DNA of 41,470 bases from positions 1 through 41,470 of the forward strand of contig JAFSNA010000112.1 in assembly GCA_017447645.1 (NCBI GenBank), in the 5' to 3' direction. Made by a program: the position numbers and the translations under genes. Position 1 is the first letter of the stretch. Every line of letters starts with the position of its first letter. The stretch is from Oscillospiraceae bacterium. Its GTDB lineage: Bacteria; Bacillota; Clostridia; Oscillospirales; Oscillospiraceae. Below, one piece after another: positions 2,538-41,294 of this stretch. Under the pieces are notes generated by a model. That model did not search any database. It saw only the letters and a list, made by a program, of their open reading frames with translations, and was not told the origin of the DNA.

Positions 2538-3005
2538 TCAGCTTTCCAGCGGTCCGGCGCCAGCCGCTTCGCCGCGCATGAAGCCGCCGAGCACGCCGTT
2601 GACGAAGGCGACCGTTTCCGGCTCGTCGTAGTTTTTGTCGAGCTCGACCGCCTCGTTGATGGCGACGGCCGCGGGGATCTCGTCCATGTATAATATCTCA
2701 GCGAGCGCAATGCGCAGGATCGCCCGCGCCGTGCGGGAGATACGCTCGCTTTTCCAGCCGTGCGCATAGCGGCCGATCAGAGCGTCGAGCTCGGCGGCCT
2801 TTTCGCGGCTCAGGGTCGTGAGCGTGCGGATATACGCCATCTGCTTTTCATCGGGAAGCTCGGAGAAAAGCTCGTTTTCCGCCGCGAGGGTCTCGTAATG
2901 CTCCGGCTCAAAAAAAGCGTCCAGCAGCTCGTCCGCTGCGATCTCGTTCGCTGCCGCCGCGAAGCAGAGCTCTACGGCGATCTCGCGCGCTGTCTTTCTG
3001 GTCAT
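2538..3005 (-). CDS. nusB: Transcription antitermination factor NusB
   Basis: A 155-residue helical RNA-binding protein that with NusE (S10) binds boxA RNA to promote antitermination of rRNA operons. Seen: MTRKTAREIAVELCFA at the start, then the C-terminal signature IPAAVAINEAVELDKNYDEPETVAFVNGVLGG written here in part (AVAINEAVELDK; FVNGVLGG), typical of NusB. A longer frame opens at 3032, but ATG at 3005 has GGAGGA 9 bases upstream and avoids overlap with the preceding gene, so I take 3005. It lies between asp23 and xseA as in many Firmicutes. Confidence 0.93.
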   Translation of the reverse strand: MTRKTAREIAVELCFAAAANEIAADELLDAFFEPEHYETLAAENELFSELPDEKQMAYIRTLTTLSREKAAELDALIGRYAHGWKSERISRTARAILRIALAEILYMDEIPAAVAINEAVELDKNYDEPETVAFVNGVLGGFMRGEAAGAGPLES

Positions 3006-3021
3006 GGCAGATGATCCTCCG

Positions 3022-3384
3022 TTATTTGTCAAAGGAAATGCCGGCGACGTGCACGTTGACCTTTGCTTTCTCGAAGCCGGTCACGGACTGAACGGTGGAG
3101 AGCAGTTTTTCCTGCACCTCTCTGGCCACGGCGACGATGCTGCTGCCGTAGCTGACGTTGATGATCACGTCGATAACGATCGTGTCGTCTTCAAAGGCGA
3201 CCTTGACGCCCTTGGAGACCGTCTTGATCCCGATCAGCTCCGCCAGCTCCGCGCCCGCGGCGTTGGAGAGGCCGGAAACGCCTTCGATCTCGGTGACCGT
3301 GGTTTTGACGAGGCTGACGATCACGTCCTCGGAAATATGGATGCTGCCCTTTTCTTCCTGGCAGGTGATGTAATTATCGGCCAT
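3022..3384 (-). CDS. Asp23/Gls24 family envelope stress protein
   Basis: A 120-residue Asp23 (DUF322) protein, the small type often called YqhY and found next to nusB and accBC in Firmicutes. Motifs: GSIHISEDVIVSLVKTTVTE, then GVKVAFEDDTIVIDVIINV and VAREVQEKLLSTVQSVTGF with KVNVHVAGI at the end, all standard for the family. In Bacillus YqhY is linked to control of acetyl-CoA carboxylase; the exact role is unsettled. It has a strong ribosome site (AGGAGG) 7-8 bases before the ATG and is the first gene of the nusB-xseAB-ispA-dxs operon, behind the promoter at 3413-3441. Confidence 0.9.
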   Translation of the reverse strand: MADNYITCQEEKGSIHISEDVIVSLVKTTVTEIEGVSGLSNAAGAELAELIGIKTVSKGVKVAFEDDTIVIDVIINVSYGSSIVAVAREVQEKLLSTVQSVTGFEKAKVNVHVAGISFDK

Positions 3385-5930: not shown

Positions 5931-6313
5931 AGCAGCTCTCCGATGGCGCTGAGCATGCTTCCGATCAGCGGCATCGCCGCGCCGAGCGCGCAGAGCACGC
6001 CGAGGAACTCCGCCGCCGAGGCGGCAGCGTTCTGCGAGGCCTCGCGGCACAGATCCGCCGTCAGCTTTGCGACGAGCGCCGCCGCGCAGCACTTGATAAC
6101 GGGCTGCAGATACACATCCGAAACGCCGTAGAGCTCCTGCGCCTTCTCCCAGGCGTCCCGCACGGGCCGCAGCAGCGTCAGCGCGGCGCCGAAAACCACG
6201 GTAAGCGCGGCGGCGGAGAGCGTGAGAGACATCTCCGGATTGCTTTTTCGGATCAGCAGGGCCGCGCAGCCGGAGACGAGCAGCACGCCGCAGATCTTGA
6301 TCAGAACATCCAT
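5927..6313 (-). CDS. spoIIIAD: Stage III sporulation protein AD
   Basis: A 128-residue membrane protein with about four hydrophobic segments (residues 3-21, 29-48, 70-88, 103-125) and conserved LIRKSNPEMSLTLSAAA near the start. SpoIIIAC and AD share sequence likeness and help build the membrane base of the channel. It starts 3 bases after spoIIIAC and overlaps spoIIIAE by 4 bases. Confidence 0.93.
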   Translation of the reverse strand: MDVLIKICGVLLVSGCAALLIRKSNPEMSLTLSAAALTVVFGAALTLLRPVRDAWEKAQELYGVSDVYLQPVIKCCAAALVAKLTADLCREASQNAAASAAEFLGVLCALGAAMPLIGSMLSAIGELL

Positions 6314-6316
6314 GCA

Positions 6317-6511
6317 TCACAAATGAAAAAGCGACTTGATCAGCGTGAAGAGCTCGCTGATCTTCTGCACGAGCATCATCAGCACCACGACCAGAGAGGC
6401 GATCGTCGTCATCAGCGCCTGTTCGTCCCGCCCCGATCGCTGCAGCAGGATATTGATCACGGCCGCCAGCAATCCGACTGCGGCGATCTTGAAAATCAGA
6501 TCTACGTCCAT
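6317..6511 (-). CDS. spoIIIAC: Stage III sporulation protein AC
   Basis: A 64-residue protein with two membrane segments (MDVDLIFKIAAVGLLAAVIN and a second from about residue 33) joined by a short loop with LLQRSGRDEQA, as in all SpoIIIAC. The ATG at 6511 has AGAGGA 4 bases upstream. The frame is open upstream of this but only as a shadow of spoIIIAB; the length of 64-68 residues is normal. Confidence 0.92.
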   Translation of the reverse strand: MDVDLIFKIAAVGLLAAVINILLQRSGRDEQALMTTIASLVVVLMMLVQKISELFTLIKSLFHL

Positions 6512-29986: not shown

Positions 29987-32002
29987 TTATTGCTCCGCGG
30001 GCTCAAAATCCTCACGCGTGTGCTTGCACAGCGGGCAGGTATAGTCCGCCGGCAGCTCGCCGTCGCAGGGCTCGAAGTGACCGCAGATCTTGCAGACCCA
30101 GCCCTTCTGCTTGGGCGTGCTGTCGGGAACGACGTGCTCGAAGTCCTCCTTGCCGTGCTTGCACAGCGGGCAGCTGAAGTCGTCGGGCATTTCCGCGCCC
30201 TCGTGAACGTAGCCGCAGACCTTGCAGACCCAGCATTCCTTCTGCTCGGGCGCCGGGTTTTTCTTGGGCTTGATGTGCGCGTGATAATAGCCGTAGGTGC
30301 AGCTCGGCGCGCCGGAGAGGACCTTCGCCTCGACGACGTTGGCAATGAACAGGATCTGCGTCTCGAGATCGTAGTGCTCGATGACCTCGCAGGAGAGCAC
30401 CGCGTTCGTGTAGAGCGGGTAATAGCGGATGCCGTTTGCCGTCCGGTCGTCGTACGGAGCGTCGGCGAACTTGTCGACGTCGCGTCCGCTCTGGAAGCCG
30501 AAGTGCTGGAACACGGAATAGGGCGCGTCCTCGGTGAGGATCGAGATGTTGAACCTTCCCGCCTTCATGACCATGTCGCAGGTGTGGTTCTTCTTGATGC
30601 AGGAGATCGTGATCTTCTTCGGCTCGCCCGCGGCGACCTGGCCGGCGGTGTTGATGATGCAGCCGTAGTCTTTGCCGTCCACGCGGGTGGTCAGCACCTC
30701 GACGCCGTAGGAGAACTTGTTGAAGGCCTTCGTGTCTACGGCCTCCAGCGAGAAGGCGGCCGGCGCCGCGGCGGGCGCGGGAGCTGCGGTCTCGGCCGGC
30801 GGGGGCAGGATATCCGCGGCCAGCGCCTCTGCAAGCGCTTCAAGCTCGGCCTCCTGGCCGACGGCGAGCGCGGACTTGAGCGTGACGCCGTCGCCGATGT
30901 ACTCGATCTTCTTCAGCGGGGCGAGGATGTCCCGCATGGCCTTGCCGCTCATGGGCGCCCAGCTGCCGTTTTCAATGATCGCGACCTTGCGGTTCTGCAG
31001 GTTGTGCGCGGCGATGTCGTGCAGCAGGTTTTCCATCGTCACAAAGACGCCCGCGTTATAGGTCGTAGCGGCAAAGACGAGGTGGCTGCAGCGGAAGGCG
31101 TCGGATACGATGTTGCTGGCCGGGATGACGGAGGTGTCGTGCATGCGCACGCGCACGCCCTTCTCGGCGAGCCTGGCCGCAAGGATGTTCGCGGCGTTCT
31201 CGGTATGGCCGTAGACGGAGGCATAGGCGATGAGGACGCTCCTCTCCTCGGGGGTGTAGCTGCTCCACAGCAGGTACTTCTCCAGAAAGTCGCCGAAATG
31301 ACTGCGCCAGACGAAGCCGTGCAGCGGGCAGACATATTTGATGTCGAGCTTGGCGGCCTTTTTCAGCACGCTCTGCACCTGCGGGCCGTACTTGCCCACG
31401 ATGTTGGTGTAGTAGCGCCGGGCCTCGTCGAGATGCTCAGTGAAGAAGTCGGTCTCGTCGGCAAACAGTCTGCCGTTGAGGGCGCCGAAAAGGCCGAAGG
31501 CGTCGGCCGAGAACAGCACGCCGTCGGTGGAGTCGTAGGTCATCATGACCTCCGGCCAGTGGACCATCGGCGCGTTGACGAAGTTCAGCACATGACGGCC
31601 GCAGGAGAAGCTTTCTCCCTCCTTGACGATCACGAGCCGGCCGGTGAGGTCGAAATGGAAGAACTGGCCGAGCATGGCCTGGATCTTTGCGTTGCAGATG
31701 ATCTTCACGTTCGGATACCGGACGATCAGATCGCCGATGGTATAGGCGTGGTCGGGCTCCATATGCGAAATGAGCAGGTAATCCAGCTCTCTTCCGCCGA
31801 GCGCGAATTCCACGTTTTCAAAGAAAGTCTGATAGACCGCCTTGTCCACGGTGTCGAAAAGCACGGTCTTTTCATCCAGCAGCAGATAGGAGTTGTAGGA
31901 TACGCCGTCGGGCACGCTATATACGCCCTCGAAGCAGCTAAGGCGTCTGTCGTCCGCGCCCACCCAGATCAGGTCGTTCAATACGTTTCTCGTGCAGTGC
32001 AT
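29987..32002 (-). CDS. Multidomain flavodiiron protein with flavin reductase and two rubredoxin domains
   Basis: A 671-residue soluble enzyme that likely reduces O2 to water or NO to N2O. Domains: metallo-beta-lactamase-like diiron domain (about 1-250) with ligands HMEPDH (80-85), H148, D167 and H228; flavodoxin domain (about 254-395; LIAYASVYGHTENAA binds FMN); a Pro/Ala-rich linker (399-417); a flavin-reductase-like split barrel (about 420-575); then two rubredoxin domains (590-621 and 637-668), each CxxCG-13-CPLC, i.e. the short-spaced form. This packs the whole electron path from NAD(P)H or flavin to the diiron site into one chain. GGGGG lies before the ATG. Single-gene unit beside rnf. 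Confidence 0.93.
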   Translation of the reverse strand: MHCTRNVLNDLIWVGADDRRLSCFEGVYSVPDGVSYNSYLLLDEKTVLFDTVDKAVYQTFFENVEFALGGRELDYLLISHMEPDHAYTIGDLIVRYPNVKIICNAKIQAMLGQFFHFDLTGRLVIVKEGESFSCGRHVLNFVNAPMVHWPEVMMTYDSTDGVLFSADAFGLFGALNGRLFADETDFFTEHLDEARRYYTNIVGKYGPQVQSVLKKAAKLDIKYVCPLHGFVWRSHFGDFLEKYLLWSSYTPEERSVLIAYASVYGHTENAANILAARLAEKGVRVRMHDTSVIPASNIVSDAFRCSHLVFAATTYNAGVFVTMENLLHDIAAHNLQNRKVAIIENGSWAPMSGKAMRDILAPLKKIEYIGDGVTLKSALAVGQEAELEALAEALAADILPPPAETAAPAPAAAPAAFSLEAVDTKAFNKFSYGVEVLTTRVDGKDYGCIINTAGQVAAGEPKKITISCIKKNHTCDMVMKAGRFNISILTEDAPYSVFQHFGFQSGRDVDKFADAPYDDRTANGIRYYPLYTNAVLSCEVIEHYDLETQILFIANVVEAKVLSGAPSCTYGYYHAHIKPKKNPAPEQKECWVCKVCGYVHEGAEMPDDFSCPLCKHGKEDFEHVVPDSTPKQKGWVCKICGHFEPCDGELPADYTCPLCKHTREDFEPAEQ

Positions 32003-34371: not shown

Positions 34372-35718
34372 TCAGGCGATGTGGCCCTTGGCCTTGATGA
34401 CCTCGATCACGCTGTCGACGTACTTCTCGCAGATCTCCTTCGAGCCCGCCTCGACCATGACGCGGATCACCGGCTCGGTGCCGCTCTCGCGCACGAGGAT
34501 GCGGCCGGTATCGCCGAGCTCTTCGGCGACTTTGTCGACCGCGGCCTGCACGTCGGGGTCGCTTCTGGCCTCGGGCTTGGATTTGACGCGCACGTTCTTG
34601 AGCACCTGCGGATAGAACACGACCGGAGCTGCCAGCTCGCTCATGGGCTTTTCCTTATCGAGCATGACCTCCATGAGCTTGATGCTCGTGAGGATGCCGT
34701 CGCCCGTCGTCGCGTGCTCGGTGAAGATGACGTGGCCGGACTGCTCGCCGCCGATCTTGTGGCCGTTTTCGACCATGTTCTCATAGACGTATTTGTCGCC
34801 GACCTTGGTCTTTTCATAGCCGATGTCGACCGCGTCGAGCGCCTTGTACAGGCCGAAGTTGCTCATGACCGTGGTGACGACCTTGTTGTTGGCCAGCTTG
34901 CCGTGCTCCTTCATGTAGAGGCCGCAGATATAGATCGTGTGGTCGCCGGTGACGACGTTGCCTTTTTCGTCCACGCAGATGCAGCGGTCCGCGTCGCCGT
35001 CATAGGCGAAGCCGATGTCGAGCTGGTTGCCGACGACGAAGTGCTGCAGATGCTCGATATGCGTGCTGCCGCAGTTGGTGTTGATGTTATAGCCGTCGGG
35101 CTCGTCGTTCATCACATAGGTCTTGGCGCCGAGGGCGTCGAACACGCTCTTCGCGATCTGCCAGGCCGCGCCGTTGGCGACGTCGAGGCCGACCTTCACG
35201 TTTTTGAAGCTGAAGCGGGAGAGCGAGATCAGATAACCGATGTAGCGGTTGCGGCCCGCGACATAGTCCACCGTACGGCCGATCTTGTCCCGCTCCGCGA
35301 GCGGCAGCTCCAGCTTGCCGTCGATGTAGTCCTCGATGCCGAGCAGGGTCTCCTCGTCCATCTTCTCGCCGTTGTTGTTGACGATCTTGATGCCGTTGTC
35401 ATAGAAGGGGTTGTGCGAAGCGGAGATCATGATGCCGCAGTCGAAGTCGTCCACGCGAGCGATATAGGATACGGAGGGCGTGGTCGTGACGTGCATGATA
35501 TAGGCGTCCGCGCCGGAGGCCATCAGGCCCGCGCAGAGCGCGTATTCGAACATATAGCTCGAACGGCGGGTGTCCTTGCCGATGACGACCTTGGCCTTGC
35601 GGTTGAGCCTCGCGCCGTAGTACCAGCCGAGATAGCGGCCGATCTTGATGGCGTGCTCGTAATCGAGCGTCTTGTTCGCTTCGCCGCGGAAGCCGTCGGT
35701 CCCGAAGTATTTGCCCAT
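34372..35718 (-). CDS. glmM: Phosphoglucosamine mutase
   Basis: A 448-residue phosphohexomutase turning glucosamine 6-phosphate into glucosamine 1-phosphate for UDP-GlcNAc and the cell wall. Seen: MGKYFGTDGFRGEANKTL at the start, the phospho-serine loop GIMISASHNPFYDNGIKI, the metal loop AYDGDADRCICVD, EQSGHVIFTEHATTGDG (sugar-binding loop) and the phosphate-binding RESGTEPVIRVMVE at the end. All active-site parts are there and match GlmM rather than general PGM. ATG overlaps the TAA of nagB by one base. Third gene behind the glmS-type ribozyme. Confidence 0.94.
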   Translation of the reverse strand: MGKYFGTDGFRGEANKTLDYEHAIKIGRYLGWYYGARLNRKAKVVIGKDTRRSSYMFEYALCAGLMASGADAYIMHVTTTPSVSYIARVDDFDCGIMISASHNPFYDNGIKIVNNNGEKMDEETLLGIEDYIDGKLELPLAERDKIGRTVDYVAGRNRYIGYLISLSRFSFKNVKVGLDVANGAAWQIAKSVFDALGAKTYVMNDEPDGYNINTNCGSTHIEHLQHFVVGNQLDIGFAYDGDADRCICVDEKGNVVTGDHTIYICGLYMKEHGKLANNKVVTTVMSNFGLYKALDAVDIGYEKTKVGDKYVYENMVENGHKIGGEQSGHVIFTEHATTGDGILTSIKLMEVMLDKEKPMSELAAPVVFYPQVLKNVRVKSKPEARSDPDVQAAVDKVAEELGDTGRILVRESGTEPVIRVMVEAGSKEICEKYVDSVIEVIKAKGHIA

Positions 35719-36509
35719 TACAGTCTCTCCTTCCTTTCGATGTCAAGGAAGTACTTGTAGGTATCGACGGTCAGCTCGCCGCAGGCGGCCTCGTCGCAGG
35801 CGATAATGGCGCCGTTGTGCATCTGCAGCGCGCTGCAGGTCCACTTCTGGCTGACGCCGCCCTCAACGGTCGCGGCCAGGGCGCGGGCCTTGTTGTGGCC
35901 GCTGATGAGGACAAGGACCTCCTTTGAATCGGTCACCGTGCCGATACCGACGGAAAGCGCCTGAGCGGGAACCTTTTCGGGATCGCCGCCGAAGAAACGG
36001 CTGTTGACGATGCGCGTGTCGGTCGTGAGATCGCGCAGGCCCGTGCGGGACGTGAGAGAGGTGAAGGGCTCGTTGAAGGCCAGATGGCCGTCCACGCCGA
36101 TGCCGCCCATGAAGAGGTCGATCCCTCCGTAGGAGGCGATCTTTTCCTCATAGCGGGCGCACTCGCCCTCGGGATCGTCGGTCATGCCGTTGAGGATGTT
36201 GATGTTCTCCGGCTTCATGTCGACGAGGTGGTCGAAGAAGGTGTCGTGCATGAAGTACCAGTAGCTCTGGTCATGCTCGTGCGGCAGGCCGAGATACTCG
36301 TCCATATTGAAGGTCACGACATTGGCGAAGGACAGCTCGCCCGCCCGGTTCATGCGGATCAGCTCCTTGTACACGCCGATCGGGGACGAGCCCGTCGGAA
36401 GGCCGAGCACGAAGGGTCTGTCCTCTTTGTGCGCGTTGATCCTGGCGGCGATATAGGCGGCCGCCCATTTGCTCATCTTATCGTAATTGTCCTGAATGAC
36501 TACTCGCAT
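35718..36509 (-). CDS. nagB: Glucosamine-6-phosphate deaminase/isomerase NagB
   Basis: A 263-residue enzyme for the reversible change glucosamine 6-phosphate + water to fructose 6-phosphate + ammonia. Seen: VLGLPTGSSPIGVYKELIRM (phosphate binding), FNMDEYLGLPHEHDQSYWYF (catalytic Asp), GGIGVDGHLAFNEPFTSLTS (catalytic Asp, His, Glu) and ALSVGIGTVTDSKEVLVLIS. Length is normal (261-266). Known catabolic NagB genes are induced by amino sugars; here the gene lies between a beta-helix acetyltransferase and glmM under a GlcN6P-sensing ribozyme, which suggests the reaction is used in the amination direction. That is inference. Confidence 0.95.
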   Translation of the reverse strand: MRVVIQDNYDKMSKWAAAYIAARINAHKEDRPFVLGLPTGSSPIGVYKELIRMNRAGELSFANVVTFNMDEYLGLPHEHDQSYWYFMHDTFFDHLVDMKPENINILNGMTDDPEGECARYEEKIASYGGIDLFMGGIGVDGHLAFNEPFTSLTSRTGLRDLTTDTRIVNSRFFGGDPEKVPAQALSVGIGTVTDSKEVLVLISGHNKARALAATVEGGVSQKWTCSALQMHNGAIIACDEAACGELTVDTYKYFLDIERKERL

Positions 36510-36540
36510 GTTTTCATACTCCTTGACATTGTGTTTTTAC

Positions 36541-37200
36541 TTACTCATGCTTCTCGACGATCACGCCGTTATCCTTGAAAATGCTGTTTTCCGGGACGAC
36601 GCCGCGAACGCAGGAGGTGGGATAGATATTGCTGTGACGGCCCACGACCGTGCCGGGGTTGCAGACGCTGTTGCAGCCGACCTCGACGTAGTCGCCGAGC
36701 ATCGCGCCGAACTTTTTGATGCCGGTCTCGATCTGCTCGGTGCCGTTGTGGACGACGACGAGCTTTTTGTCCGACTTGACGTTGGAGGTGATGGAGCCCG
36801 CGCCCATGTGAGAGTAATAGCCCAGGATCGAGTCGCCGACGTAATTGTAATGCGGCGTCTGCACATGGTCGAAGAGGATCACGTTTTTCAGCTCCACCGA
36901 GTTGCCGACGACGCAGTTCGCGCCGACCAGCGCCGAGCCGCGGATAAAGGCGCAGTGGCGCACCTCGGTCTCGGGGCCGATGATGCAGGGCGCGCCGAGA
37001 TACGCGCTCGGGAATACCTTTGCCGTCTTATGTACCCATACGTGCTCGGAGACCTCCTCATAGTCCTCCCCCAGCGTCGGGCCGAGCTTCAGGATGAACT
37101 CCTTGATGCCCTTGAGCGCCTCCCAGGGGTAGCTGAACTGCAGAAGATAGTCCTTTGCCAGCGTATGGTCGAGATCATAGAGATCCTTGATGGTATACAT
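36541..37200 (-). CDS. Left-handed beta-helix acyltransferase, GlmU C-terminal-like
   Basis: A 219-residue protein, almost all left-handed beta-helix hexapeptide repeats (about residues 55-205), with no nucleotidyltransferase domain. HYNYVGDSILG (117-127) and HMGAGSITSNVKS (131-143) match the GlmU acetyltransferase blocks in which the His of H-x-x-Y-x-G-D is catalytic and the Asn binds the sugar. It is often named UDP-GlcNAc pyrophosphorylase in databases for this reason. Likely role: acetylating glucosamine 1-phosphate made by GlmM. ATG at 37200 has AAAAGGAG 6 bases upstream; the longer open frame runs into the ribozyme. First gene behind the glmS ribozyme. Confidence 0.85.
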   Translation of the reverse strand: MYTIKDLYDLDHTLAKDYLLQFSYPWEALKGIKEFILKLGPTLGEDYEEVSEHVWVHKTAKVFPSAYLGAPCIIGPETEVRHCAFIRGSALVGANCVVGNSVELKNVILFDHVQTPHYNYVGDSILGYYSHMGAGSITSNVKSDKKLVVVHNGTEQIETGIKKFGAMLGDYVEVGCNSVCNPGTVVGRHSNIYPTSCVRGVVPENSIFKDNGVIVEKHE

Positions 37201-37266
37201 GGCTGTCTCCTTTTCAAACGAGATCGCCGCCGTGCCTTGTAAAACACGGCGTCCTGCGGCGTCGAT

Positions 37267-37394
37267 GCGGGGCTCTGTTACAGTGTCGATTCTGCTTTTT
37301 ATCCCCGCCCTGACGGCTCGCCGCGGGCCGTGGCAGCATCCGCCGAGTCTTTCGACAACTGCCATCCCTCGTCAACCGTATCGGTCCAGGCGCT
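37267..37394 (-). ncRNA. glmS-type self-cleaving ribozyme (glucosamine-6-phosphate sensing)
   Basis: The minus strand reads TTATTA|GCGCC (cleavage between 37394 and 37393), a short P1 (GACCG/CGGTT), GACGAGG, then GGCAG-TTGTCGAAAGACT-CGGCGGATG-CTGCC, the P2.1/core block found in B. subtilis and B. anthracis glmS ribozymes (TCGAAA, CGGCGGATGCC). P3 is ACGGC...GCCGT, and P4 is GCGGGG...CCCCGC (37288-37283 region with 37272-37267) around AAAAAGCAG. Known: glucosamine 6-phosphate is the cofactor for cleavage, after which the mRNA is degraded. It lies in the 5' leader of the beta-helix-nagB-glmM operon, about 66 bases before the first ATG, not before a glmS gene. Confidence 0.92.
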
Positions 37395-37486
37395 AATAAC
37401 GATCCCATGATCCTCCTTCCGAGGACCGTTATTTTATGGAGAAAGCACTGAAAAGATCCATCGATCTTCTCTCGCTTTACTGGTTT

Positions 37487-37515
37487 ATTATAGTCTCGGC
37501 GGGAGCAAAAATCAA
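37487..37515 (-). promoter_or_regulatory. Promoter of the ribozyme-nagB-glmM operon
   Basis: TTGATT (37515-37510), a 17-base spacer and TATAAT (37492-37487). Transcription would start near 37480, giving about 86 bases of leader before the ribozyme cleavage site. The leader holds a short hairpin (GGTCCTC/GAGGATC, near 37409-37427). Confidence 0.75.
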
Positions 37516-38852: not shown

Positions 38853-41294
38853 TCAGGCTTCGTTGATGGCCGCGATCACGCCCGAGGCGTCGTTCAGAGG
38901 CCTGACATAGCCCTCTAGCATCCTCGCCTTCGCAGCGAGACCGCGCGAGCGCGGGCTGATGAAGATCGTGCATTTTCCCCGCCCGTTCCGTGCCTCCTGG
39001 ATGAGGTTGAGCGCGGCGGAGTTGCCGTCAAAGGCAAGCAGCACAGAGGGCATGCGCTTGAAGATCTCATAGGCGAAGCTCTTATACAGGCCCATCGCCG
39101 AATTCTCGATCGAGATCAATACCTCCACGCCCGACAAGACCAGACGGGCCCGCTCCGCCGCGCTGATCCTGCCCGGCACGATCGCGAAGATGCGGAAGCG
39201 CCCTGCCGCGCTGCGGACGAGATAGCCCTCCTGTCCGGACAGCGAGTGGCCAACGACGAAGACGACCTTCTGCGGGTCGGCCTCGCCGACCAGCGCGTCG
39301 ATCAGCGCGCGGTCCCCGGCCTTGAGCAGCGTGCGGTGGCTGCTGTTGTTGAAGCTGCCGCCCGCTGCGATGACGGGAAGCATACCCTCCGGCAGGACGG
39401 AGATCTGTGTGCGCAGCGCCTCCTCGGCGTCGATCTTCTCCGCGCCGTGCCACAGATCGTCGGCCGCGGGGAGAGCGCCCTCGAGTCGCAGGCGGTAATA
39501 TCTCTCCAGATCTCCGCCCTCGAAGCGGGAACGGAATCGCTCTTCCTTTTCGCGGAACACACGCAGGCTTTCCTGCAGGATCGCATCCTCCGAAAGGCGC
39601 ATACGGCGCAGCTCCTCGTGAGAGAGCCCCAGAAGCTTTTCCAGGCTCAGCTCCTCGTCGATCGAATTCGTCCCGTACAGCGCGCAGCCGTCCGTGCCCT
39701 GCACACAGCTGACGTCGGCGGCCAGATACTGCCGCAGCGGGTGGCGCTTGAGGTGACTGAGGTTGTTCAGTCGCACGTTCGAGGTGATCTGGAATTCCAG
39801 CGTGACACCGTATTTTCTCATGTCCTCCAGAAGCCTCTGCCCGCTCGCGCTTCGCAGATCGCATGCGTACAGGCCGTGGCCCACGCGCATCGGCGGGAAG
39901 CTCTGCCCCGGCTGGAGCGATTCGGCCACGCAGCGGATGCTGTTGGCGATATTGTCGCGCAGGCTGTCGTTCTCGCCCGCGTGGATGCGGATGACGAAGC
40001 CCGGCTCCTCGCCCGCAAGCTTGACAAGCTCGCGGATCACGCTGCGCAGCTCGAGGATGTCGTTGATCTCCTCGCCGACGATGTCGCTGCCGGCCACATA
40101 GGGGTCGGACGCGATCACGCGCAGACAGCGCAGGTTTTCCGCCAGATAGTCGTTCGGCGTCACGCGGTCGCGCACGATCGTCAGCGGGATGCGCCGGATC
40201 CCGGCAAGGAAGCGCAGCAGCACGCCCGTCTCGCGCCGGATCGTCGGCATGATCTCGTGGATCTGGCGCAGCCTGGCGGGGAATTCCGCGCGGTTGAGCA
40301 GCGCCGTGTCGGTGATCTCGGCATATTCGATGCCGTGCTTGCGATACTCTCTCGCGATCCACAGCAGCAGGTCCTGATAGAGGGTATTGGCCCGGTAGCG
40401 GCCGTCCTCGCGGTCGCGGCAGATCTGCGCGGCGTAGGCGCGTACCTCCCGGTCCGGGATGCCGTCGATGTTGACGCCGGAAAAGCGTTCCTCAGAGGGC
40501 TGTCCCTTGGTGAAGACATAGCGGTAGAGATAGACCTTTTCGAGATCTGCAAACACCGCCTGTCCGTCCTTCGGGATCGTGAGCGAGTTGCGCACCCGCT
40601 CGATGTTCCAGGCCGCGTCCTCCGGATCGCCCAGGATCAGTTCGGCGAAATTGATGAAGGTATAGTCGTCGATCCGGCGCTCCCGATGCTTGCCGCTCAG
40701 CGGGATGTCGCCGAGCGCCTTTTCGGTCTCCCGGCGTTTTTCCTCCAGCTGCGCGCGCTGCCCGGCCGTGCAGCGAAGCGAGAGCTTTTTGATATAGTAA
40801 TACGGATAGCGGATCTGATGAACGATGCCCAGGGCGATCAGCGCGTCGGGCGGCAGGATGCCGTTCATATGCGTGTGCAGGTCGGTCCGGAATTTGCAGT
40901 CCGACCGGATATATGTCTTGACGATCGTCTTCTCAACGCCCAGACGGTAGTCCTTGGTCTGGCTCATCAGCGTTTTGGAGATCGCGGGGATCGAGGCCTT
41001 GAGCTCGACCCTCCCGTCGGGATAGATGTTGGCGATCTTGGTGTTGCCCAGCCGCAGGATATACATGCTGCGGTTGTCGCCGTCCACGTAACAGGGGATC
41101 TCGTCGCGGATGACCGTCAATCCGTTTTCGTCCGTGCTTGTTTCAAGATCGCAGAGCCTGGCAAGGTTGCAGATCAGATTGCCCGTACGGTGGTTCGGGG
41201 TGCGGATCACATAAAAAAGCCTCTCCCCGTCGAGAAACAGCTCGACGGCGATGTCCTTTTCCCTGTCAAGATAAAACTGCTGAAAGAAGATCAT
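38853..41294 (-). CDS. Large adenosine-deaminase-like amidohydrolase with C-terminal Rossmann-like domain
   Basis: An 813-residue protein in three parts. Residues 1-125: a beta-rich domain I do not recognise (IFFQQFYLDREKDIAVEL). Residues about 130-560: an adenosine/AMP-deaminase fold with long inserts and a full metal and catalytic set: DLHTHMNG (H140, H142), VIRIHAGEND (H438, E441), RVGHGLYA (H473), TDGCALYGT (D535), plus FQITSNVRLNNL and VAGSDIVGEE. Residues about 636-813: alternating strands and helices starting VIAAGGSFNNSSHR and VVFVVGHSLSGQEGYLV, which looks like a Rossmann/SLOG-type nucleotide-binding domain. Standard ADA is about 340 residues. Substrate is unknown. AAGGGAG lies 6 bases before the ATG; it has its own promoter. 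Confidence 0.85.
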   Translation of the reverse strand: MIFFQQFYLDREKDIAVELFLDGERLFYVIRTPNHRTGNLICNLARLCDLETSTDENGLTVIRDEIPCYVDGDNRSMYILRLGNTKIANIYPDGRVELKASIPAISKTLMSQTKDYRLGVEKTIVKTYIRSDCKFRTDLHTHMNGILPPDALIALGIVHQIRYPYYYIKKLSLRCTAGQRAQLEEKRRETEKALGDIPLSGKHRERRIDDYTFINFAELILGDPEDAAWNIERVRNSLTIPKDGQAVFADLEKVYLYRYVFTKGQPSEERFSGVNIDGIPDREVRAYAAQICRDREDGRYRANTLYQDLLLWIAREYRKHGIEYAEITDTALLNRAEFPARLRQIHEIMPTIRRETGVLLRFLAGIRRIPLTIVRDRVTPNDYLAENLRCLRVIASDPYVAGSDIVGEEINDILELRSVIRELVKLAGEEPGFVIRIHAGENDSLRDNIANSIRCVAESLQPGQSFPPMRVGHGLYACDLRSASGQRLLEDMRKYGVTLEFQITSNVRLNNLSHLKRHPLRQYLAADVSCVQGTDGCALYGTNSIDEELSLEKLLGLSHEELRRMRLSEDAILQESLRVFREKEERFRSRFEGGDLERYYRLRLEGALPAADDLWHGAEKIDAEEALRTQISVLPEGMLPVIAAGGSFNNSSHRTLLKAGDRALIDALVGEADPQKVVFVVGHSLSGQEGYLVRSAAGRFRIFAIVPGRISAAERARLVLSGVEVLISIENSAMGLYKSFAYEIFKRMPSVLLAFDGNSAALNLIQEARNGRGKCTIFISPRSRGLAAKARMLEGYVRPLNDASGVIAAINEA

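Follow-up and report, generated by a model that had tools for sequence, protein, structure and literature searches.

The DNA analyzed here (the window; 41,470 nucleotides (nt) of Oscillospiraceae bacterium assembly GCA_017447645.1, contig JAFSNA010000112.1, positions 1–41,470) carries on its minus strand a glmS ribozyme followed by three genes, hex, nagB and glmM (Table 1). The source assembly is a draft resembling a metagenome-assembled genome (MAG), with 148 contigs, 87.2% completeness and 6.9% contamination. In the canonical unit such a ribozyme lies in the leader of glmS; the genes 3′ of this one are hex–nagB–glmM, and hex, which comes first, has a start region of its own 3′ of the ribozyme. 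A preliminary description had proposed a promoter, a ribozyme core at 37394–37267 and an operon ordered acyltransferase, nagB, glmM and closed by a terminator. The promoter, the ribozyme and the gene order were borne out, with the nagB and glmM products exceeding their curated cut-offs (236.9 and 447.55 bits, respectively). The terminator stands in part: a hairpin with a T-run is visible by eye, but it is absent from the pattern scan list.

Table 1. Window coordinates of the ribozyme-led operon and its flanking signals
Feature	Position	Strand	Basis
Promoter-like TTGATT-17-TATAAT	37515–37487	−	Pattern scan, 10 of 12 matches
Upstream hairpin P0 (3′ end is the nucleotide before A37394)	37433–37395	−	Fold and arm covariation
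GGAGG within P0, Shine–Dalgarno (SD)-like	37416–37412	−	Compared with the STAB-SD mRNA stabilizer
glmS ribozyme	37405–37256	−	RF00234, 60.1 bits
hex, hexapeptide-repeat acyltransferase	37200–36541	−	Resembles C-terminal half of Arch_glmU TIGR03992
nagB, glucosamine-6-phosphate deaminase family, E. coli-like	36509–35718	−	TIGR00502, 372.7 bits
glmM, phosphoglucosamine mutase	35718–34372	−	TIGR01455, 532.7 bits
Terminator-like GC-rich long hairpin and T-run after glmM	~34362–34325	−	By-eye reading; absent from pattern scan list

The ribozyme, its leader and the operon proteins

The RF00234 match exceeds the gathering score of 37 bits (E = 1.5e-11), spans the full length of the model (positions 1–167) and is the only one in the source genome; the lack of such a covariance-model match, which the preliminary description had named as grounds for giving up its proposal, is thus not what was found. 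The conserved core segments AGCGCC, GACGAGG and UCGGCGGAUG are all present, and cleavage is expected between A37394 and G37393, a position we take from the ribozyme class. Across 15 same-genus copies, 96.0% of helix cells are paired, compared with 25.8–52.7% after sliding the partners. Changes on both sides affect 41 cells, against a shuffled mean of 15.6 and a number that none of 500 shuffles attains, and the covariation score exceeds all 500 shuffles. Two measures are weaker: the number of pairs with a double change (10) was equaled by 42 of the 500 shuffles, and the number of pair types by 378. A chance resemblance is ruled out by the RF00234 score, the covariation and the presence of the ribozyme at 63 of 80 nagB loci (see below). 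By score and covariation, the window RNA belongs to the glmS ribozyme class, and self-cleavage dependent on glucosamine 6-phosphate (GlcN6P) is predicted.

Directly upstream of the expected cleavage site, hairpin P0 folds with −15.1 kcal/mol (z = −2.17), a stability equaled by 6 of 200 shuffles. GGAGG or AGGAG occurs within 60 nt upstream of the site in 58 of 62 nagB-type leaders (9.4 expected from letter shuffling), mostly 19–25 nt 5′ of it, and less often in glmS-linked leaders (16 of 35; 3.5 expected); the 8 nt immediately 5′ of the site are 69% paired in the former versus 24% in the latter. This leader analysis leaves out L077, which is cut, and L132. The two arms of P0 pair at 450 of 540 positions in the 54 of 62 leaders with a TAAAR motif to anchor the 5′ arm (the eight without it were left out); 2,000 between-sequence re-pairings average 353 and reach at most 378. 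Arm positions 3–8 lie above every re-pairing and positions 1, 2, 9 and 10 do not, and kinship among leaders inflates tests of this kind. A leader peptide over the ribozyme, with an SD motif and an ATG at 37408, was considered and rejected: an SD-like motif with a nearby start codon is found in just 20 of 63 leaders, so GGAGG, rather than an open reading frame (ORF), seems to be the conserved part. In Bacillus, mRNA is stabilized by a strong SD that lies close to the 5′ end and lacks a start codon (STAB-SD), according to the excerpted text of PMC3997798. By analogy, cleavage may detach the message from a STAB-SD-like GGAGG hairpin.

The hex product fits the earlier proposal of a GlmU-like β-helix acyltransferase. 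It aligns with positions 211–393 of TIGR03992 (141.5 bits, under the 292.1 cut-off for the whole bifunctional protein) and matches the acetyltransferase half of PDB 2ggo and 5z09, with hex His117 aligned to 2ggo His308. We take this residue to be the acetyltransferase active-site His; it is retained in 61 of 61 sequences, in an alignment that leaves out L124 because of a stop codon inside the matched stretch. Having both the similarity to the acetyltransferase half and the presumed active-site His, hex is likely a glucosamine-1-phosphate N-acetyltransferase. Among 46 handles searched for a full bacterial GlmU, 6 gave one over the cut-off (5 of 45 genomes, because G437 and G097 are the same); none was found in the source genome, where a separate 364-residue protein at C31 resembles the nucleotidyltransferase half of archaeal GlmU (TIGR03992, 127.1 bits; cut-off 292.1). 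Because few carriers have a full GlmU and a separate nucleotidyltransferase is at hand in C31, hex plausibly fills the acetylation step.

NagB retains D72, D141, H143, E148, R172 and K208 (E. coli numbering) in 81 of 81 sequences, the first four of which we take to be the catalytic residues of the E. coli enzyme. All 81 also carry R158→G, K160→R, S151→T and T161→D/N/S, with S152 and Y254 retained. The four changed residues presumably belong to the allosteric site at which N-acetylglucosamine 6-phosphate (GlcNAc6P) acts in E. coli NagB, and the residue set of an E. coli-type GlcNAc6P-activated enzyme is not present.

Conservation and gene order of the ribozyme–nagB association

RF00234 matched in 15 of 49 same-genus genomes, in a search with stricter filters that lose weak matches (the G044 copy lies below the gathering score). 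Each of the 15 lies before nagB, either immediately or separated from it by hex, and none lies before glmS. Among other families of the order, eight genomes have a ribozyme, seven before glmS and one (G065) before neither gene. A model built from the 15 genus copies, R1, matched 39 of 101 genus genomes (41 matches); of the 23 matches with inspected context, 21 lead into nagB and two into glmM or hex–glmM. Ten same-genus genomes without a ribozyme match were also searched for NagB: eight have none over the TIGR00502 cut-off, and G001 and G015 have one without a ribozyme. Across the class, RF00234 is present in 107 of 291 genomes (108 matches), and 101 of the 106 ribozymes examined lead into glmS, two into nagB and three into neither. 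The two nagB cases, G437 and G316, come from two further families, and the nagB of G316 is broken. McCown is said to have reported in 2011 that nearly all known glmS ribozymes precede glmS.

Named genomes gave the same picture. Of at least 468 nagB relatives, the best 80 were kept; they come mostly from ruminant-gut MAGs and also from records not labeled as MAGs (NK3B98, NK3D112 and YRB3002), and 63 of these 80 loci have the ribozyme. The sets overlap: some genomes appear under two handles (G032/G083, G033/G084, G039/G124, G437/G097 and G169/L082), and L067, L068 and L136 of the named set share contigs with G032, G033 and G039 of the genus set. The ribozyme–nagB association is therefore real and conserved, mostly in ruminant-gut Clostridia. 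Among the papers listed by a search of published full text, none has a title or abstract opening that describes a glmS ribozyme or riboswitch with nagB; subscription papers lie mostly outside the scope of that search, which is not proof that the association is unpublished.

Three ribozymes of the surveys differ in what follows them. In G316 (L309, 3335–5937), the ribozyme is followed by a nagB match to residues 1–111 only and then by an IS1634-family transposase, so that the gene is apparently interrupted by an insertion sequence. In G217 (L306), a glmS ribozyme at 6285–6451(−) precedes a 35-residue match to the glmS C terminus at 6091–6195(−), possibly the remnant of a lost gene. In G065 (L293), a glmS ribozyme at 3001–3167(−) precedes a 353-residue ORF at 1773–2831(−) for which NCBIfam gives no match at E 1e-10; G065 has its glmS on a different contig from the ribozyme.

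The order of the genes under the ribozyme varies. Counted over the 63 ribozyme loci with gaps of up to 700 nt, it is nagB–hex–glmM at 26, hex–nagB–glmM at 18 and nagB alone at 11, with rarer orders nagB–hex (2), nagB–glmM (2), glmM–nagB (2), hex–glmM–nagB (1) and hex–nagB (1). At 3 of the 11 nagB-alone loci (L086, L121 and L132), hex–glmM follows after a gap of about 1 kb. Gene order thus shifts while ribozyme control is kept. One could suppose that the ribozyme is meant for glmM and hex and that nagB is carried along, as G164 and G169 each have, on a separate contig, a ribozyme before glmM or hex–glmM without nagB. The same two genomes (contamination 8% and 3%, respectively) have another ribozyme for nagB, which argues that nagB is a target in its own right; nagB is moreover the first gene at 41 of the 63 loci, and at 11 neither hex nor glmM lies within 700 nt. 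We regard this explanation as highly improbable, and the loci with ribozyme and nagB alone nearly refute it.

Queries with nagA and nagE of E. coli and with four relatives of nagA gave no match at any of the 63 ribozyme loci; the single match among the 80 nagB loci is L133, which has no ribozyme. L103 and L135, both without a detectable ribozyme, have glmS immediately before nagB in a same-strand tandem, with 71 and 78 nt between the two genes. Since GlmS and NagB working in opposite directions from such a tandem would form a futile cycle, we count these loci for an aminating NagB. At four more loci, glmS lies 3′ of the operon on the same strand, at least 1 kb away.

Second clusters that again couple a NagB with synthesis genes were observed in four genomes. 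In G034, G027 and G037, the NagB is divergent (27% identical) and comes with glmM (66–68%) and hex (69–72%), and G041 has a divergent NagB (30%) with hex (70%). The clusters lie at L298 4416–7124, L299 3557–6336, L300 4256–7032 and L301 4381–5707, and R1 has no match at any of them.

glmS in the carriers and the direction of NagB

From an operon without glmS, the preliminary description had derived a GlmS-free path to uridine diphosphate N-acetylglucosamine (UDP-GlcNAc). The operon does lack glmS, but the source genome has a native full glmS at C104:5090–6919 (764 bits; cut-off 418), and the path cannot be GlmS-free there; it could hold only for a minority of carriers such as NK3B98. The encoded protein shares 94.6% identity with the GlmS of G080 and 92.8% with the GlmS of G004, two genomes that also carry the ribozyme operon; the identity with the near relative G080, together with 3 kb of C104 DNA colinear with it, rules out a contaminant. 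The other observation that had been named as telling against the proposal was a second glmS with its own ribozyme, alongside amino-sugar uptake genes tied to this nagB. Of this the glmS exists, but its ribozyme was not found, and nagA and nagE queries gave no match at the ribozyme loci, as described above. No Rfam match was obtained on the whole 6.9-kb C104, including the ~5 kb before glmS (L001 and L063), or at 13 glmS loci of carriers (12 distinct, L044 being L149), by which we reject a glmS with its own ribozyme in these genomes. Of six named loci with glmS near nagB, five show the operon's own ribozyme only and L103 shows none.

No glmS over the cut-off was found in ten carriers, G034, G035, G037, G041 and G045 of the genus set and G088, G093, G100 (NK3B98), G108 and G119 of the named set; any match they give to the glmS model is weak and partial. 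With the source GlmS as query they gave nothing or a weak partial match (G037 and G093), and the positive controls G080, G004 and G027 were found. Two of the ten are 94% (G034) and 92% (G045) complete. The NK3B98 assembly, of 3.0 Mb, has 44 tRNA matches, a count that suggests near-completeness. A candidate glmS remnant in G090 proved to be a fragment at a contig end, and this genome is counted as unclear. Two genomes outside the carriers have neither a full glmS nor a ribozyme (in the filtered search, with none at their nagB loci): G001 (95% complete), with an 80% identical NagB at L169 5972–6757(−), and G008 (97%), with a divergent NagB at L170 5148–5837(+).

Where glmS is present, it differs between carriers. 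The source glmS is 92–95% identical to those of G080, G004, G005 and G026 (G005 is not a ribozyme carrier) and about 53–54% identical to those of G082 and G032, whose NagB (L066 and L067) is 96% identical to the window NagB. Two glmS lineages (L063, L316 and L314 versus L324 and L323) thus occur among closely similar ribozyme–nagB operons, which suggests that glmS has been replaced.

We consider it probable, from these comparisons of sequence, that the operon is a biosynthetic one for UDP-GlcNAc in which NagB is predicted to make GlcN6P from ammonia under feedback control. The preliminary description had argued for NagB acting toward GlcN6P from this one locus; the association within and beyond the genus, the varying gene order, the separate ribozymes and the 11 of 63 loci with nagB alone strengthen that argument, as do the two glmS–nagB tandems, the changed allosteric site and the scarcity of full GlmU. 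Expression of the operon would peak at low GlcN6P, a state in which deaminase activity would do harm and amination by NagB would help.

Several observations weigh against this interpretation. Seventeen of the 80 nagB loci have no detectable ribozyme, several of them with all three genes, although four (L069, L115, L123 and L126) start near a contig end. The 81 NagB sequences include those of these 17 loci, with identical allosteric-site changes, so the changes are characteristic of this NagB lineage whether or not a ribozyme is present. NagB is not needed as sole synthase in most carriers: glmS over the cut-off is present in 11 of 15 genus carriers and in 44 of the 50 of 63 named carriers searched (eight loci already showing glmS and five on short contigs were left out), and its absence comes mostly from incomplete MAGs, each weak evidence individually. 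Because a nagA over its cut-off is found in the source genome and for 36 of the 68 handles searched, NagB may also act there in salvage and deamination. A further point comes from the gut bacterium Akkermansia muciniphila, which lacks glmS, as some carriers seem to, and has NagB as sole candidate: its NagB does not aminate usefully (Km for NH4 41 mM) and provides no GlcN6P supply, and the organism needs N-acetylglucosamine (GlcNAc) or N-acetylgalactosamine (GalNAc), and the excerpted text mentions no ribozyme (PMC5902328).

A catabolic NagB is favored by the known role of the family, reflected in its deaminase names, by the nagA of the source genome and by the conserved upstream hairpin, an added element. 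The ribozyme would then keep NagB low or, in inverted form, cleavage would switch the operon on, for example by removing that hairpin. NagB shares its control, however, with GlmM and hex, enzymes that would direct GlcN6P into synthesis, and the start region of the first gene lies 3′ of the ribozyme. Most ribozymes sampled across the class, moreover, stand before glmS, where in B. subtilis cleavage represses, as the part of PMC3997798 consulted has it. We judge a catabolic NagB quite improbable. An explanation between the two is a reversible valve, in which NagB works near equilibrium both ways, the ribozyme sets its capacity and the supply of ammonia or amino sugar sets the direction. The reaction is easily reversible (PMC11593775, in the passage cited), and with glmS kept by most carriers and nagA by many, two-way flux is possible. 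Against this, nagB is linked at the ribozyme loci with glmM and hex, not with nagA or nagE, feedback by GlcN6P would give least NagB when deamination is most wanted, and the allosteric site is altered; a valve of this kind seems unlikely to us.

Under the biosynthetic interpretation, for which we infer the activity and direction of NagB in these organisms and the roles of hex and the hairpin, NagB would mainly aminate, converting fructose 6-phosphate and NH4+ to GlcN6P. GlmM would convert GlcN6P to glucosamine 1-phosphate (GlcN1P) and hex would acetylate GlcN1P to N-acetylglucosamine 1-phosphate (GlcNAc1P); a separate nucleotidyltransferase would then couple GlcNAc1P with UTP. Plentiful GlcN6P would activate the leader ribozyme, the downstream fragment with its 5′-OH would be degraded by RNase J, and supply would fall; cleavage would also sever the message from the STAB-SD-like GGAGG hairpin that could otherwise protect it. 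For B. subtilis, the excerpted text of PMC3997798 describes GlcN6P-triggered ribozyme cleavage and degradation of the 5′-OH fragment by RNase J1. The constant of the reversible NagB reaction is given as 0.2 M in the passage cited from PMC11593775. At this value and an assumed 1 mM fructose 6-phosphate and 10 mM NH4+, arithmetic gives about 50 micromolar GlcN6P, on which GlmM and acetylation would draw. In the source genome, NagB (the ammonia route) would work beside a GlmS (the glutamine route) at whose gene no ribozyme was found, and in some relatives NagB is perhaps the only GlcN6P-forming enzyme.

For the history of the system, we lean slightly toward a GlcN6P ribozyme that moved, in a lineage of gut Clostridia, from glmS to an ammonia-using NagB as the feedback-controlled entry to cell-wall amino sugars, with glmS becoming redundant, being exchanged among unrelated copies and, in some genomes such as NK3B98, being lost, and with a STAB-SD-like hairpin cut off on cleavage.

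Domain matches were recorded for two other genes of the window. The 813-residue protein at 38856–41294(−) matches Pfam A_deaminase (adenosine-deaminase-like) at residues 313–566 only, in mid-protein, and the 671-residue protein at 29990–32002(−) is a fusion of metallo-β-lactamase/flavodoxin, flavin-reductase and rubredoxin-like domains.

Comparison with known systems

A conserved branch of ribozymes controlling nagB would argue, from regulation alone, for an anabolic, ammonia-assimilating NagB in bacteria, and would make NagB directionality, an old question, directly testable. It bears on cell-wall synthesis by gut bacteria where ammonia is high. Metabolic models in which NagB is catabolic and glmS essential would be affected too, as would the idea of using GlcN6P mimics as drugs against glmS ribozymes.

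The E. coli nagB product (NC_000913) shares family and catalytic residues with the window NagB; its gene neighbors nagA, nagC and nagE, and it has the Arg158, Lys160 and Thr161 that are changed here. The hex product corresponds to the C-terminal half, including His308, of the proteins in PDB 2ggo and 5z09, which we take to be sugar-1-phosphate nucleotidylyltransferase/acetyltransferases of the Sulfolobus type; the nucleotidyltransferase half is missing from hex. A precedent for the proposed direction is the NagB-family enzyme of the protozoan Giardia lamblia, which the available part of PMC4281351 calls anabolic, with a Km for NH4Cl of 19–23 mM, a Vmax higher for amination and no response to the ligands tested. 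No ribozyme is mentioned there, and amination by the window NagB is a prediction.

The regulatory counterpart is the glmS ribozyme itself, described in the excerpts at hand as a feedback control of glmS (PMC2258182) and as controlling genes of GlcN6P production (PMC6154101). The ribozyme of B. subtilis and most Clostridia shares with the one described here its class, its core, its presumed ligand and the logic of mRNA decay (PMC3997798, as excerpted). Both arrangements control an entry step to UDP-GlcNAc. They differ in the target, which here is nagB with glmM and an acetyltransferase gene, and in the GGAGG hairpin, which is commoner in the nagB-type leaders.

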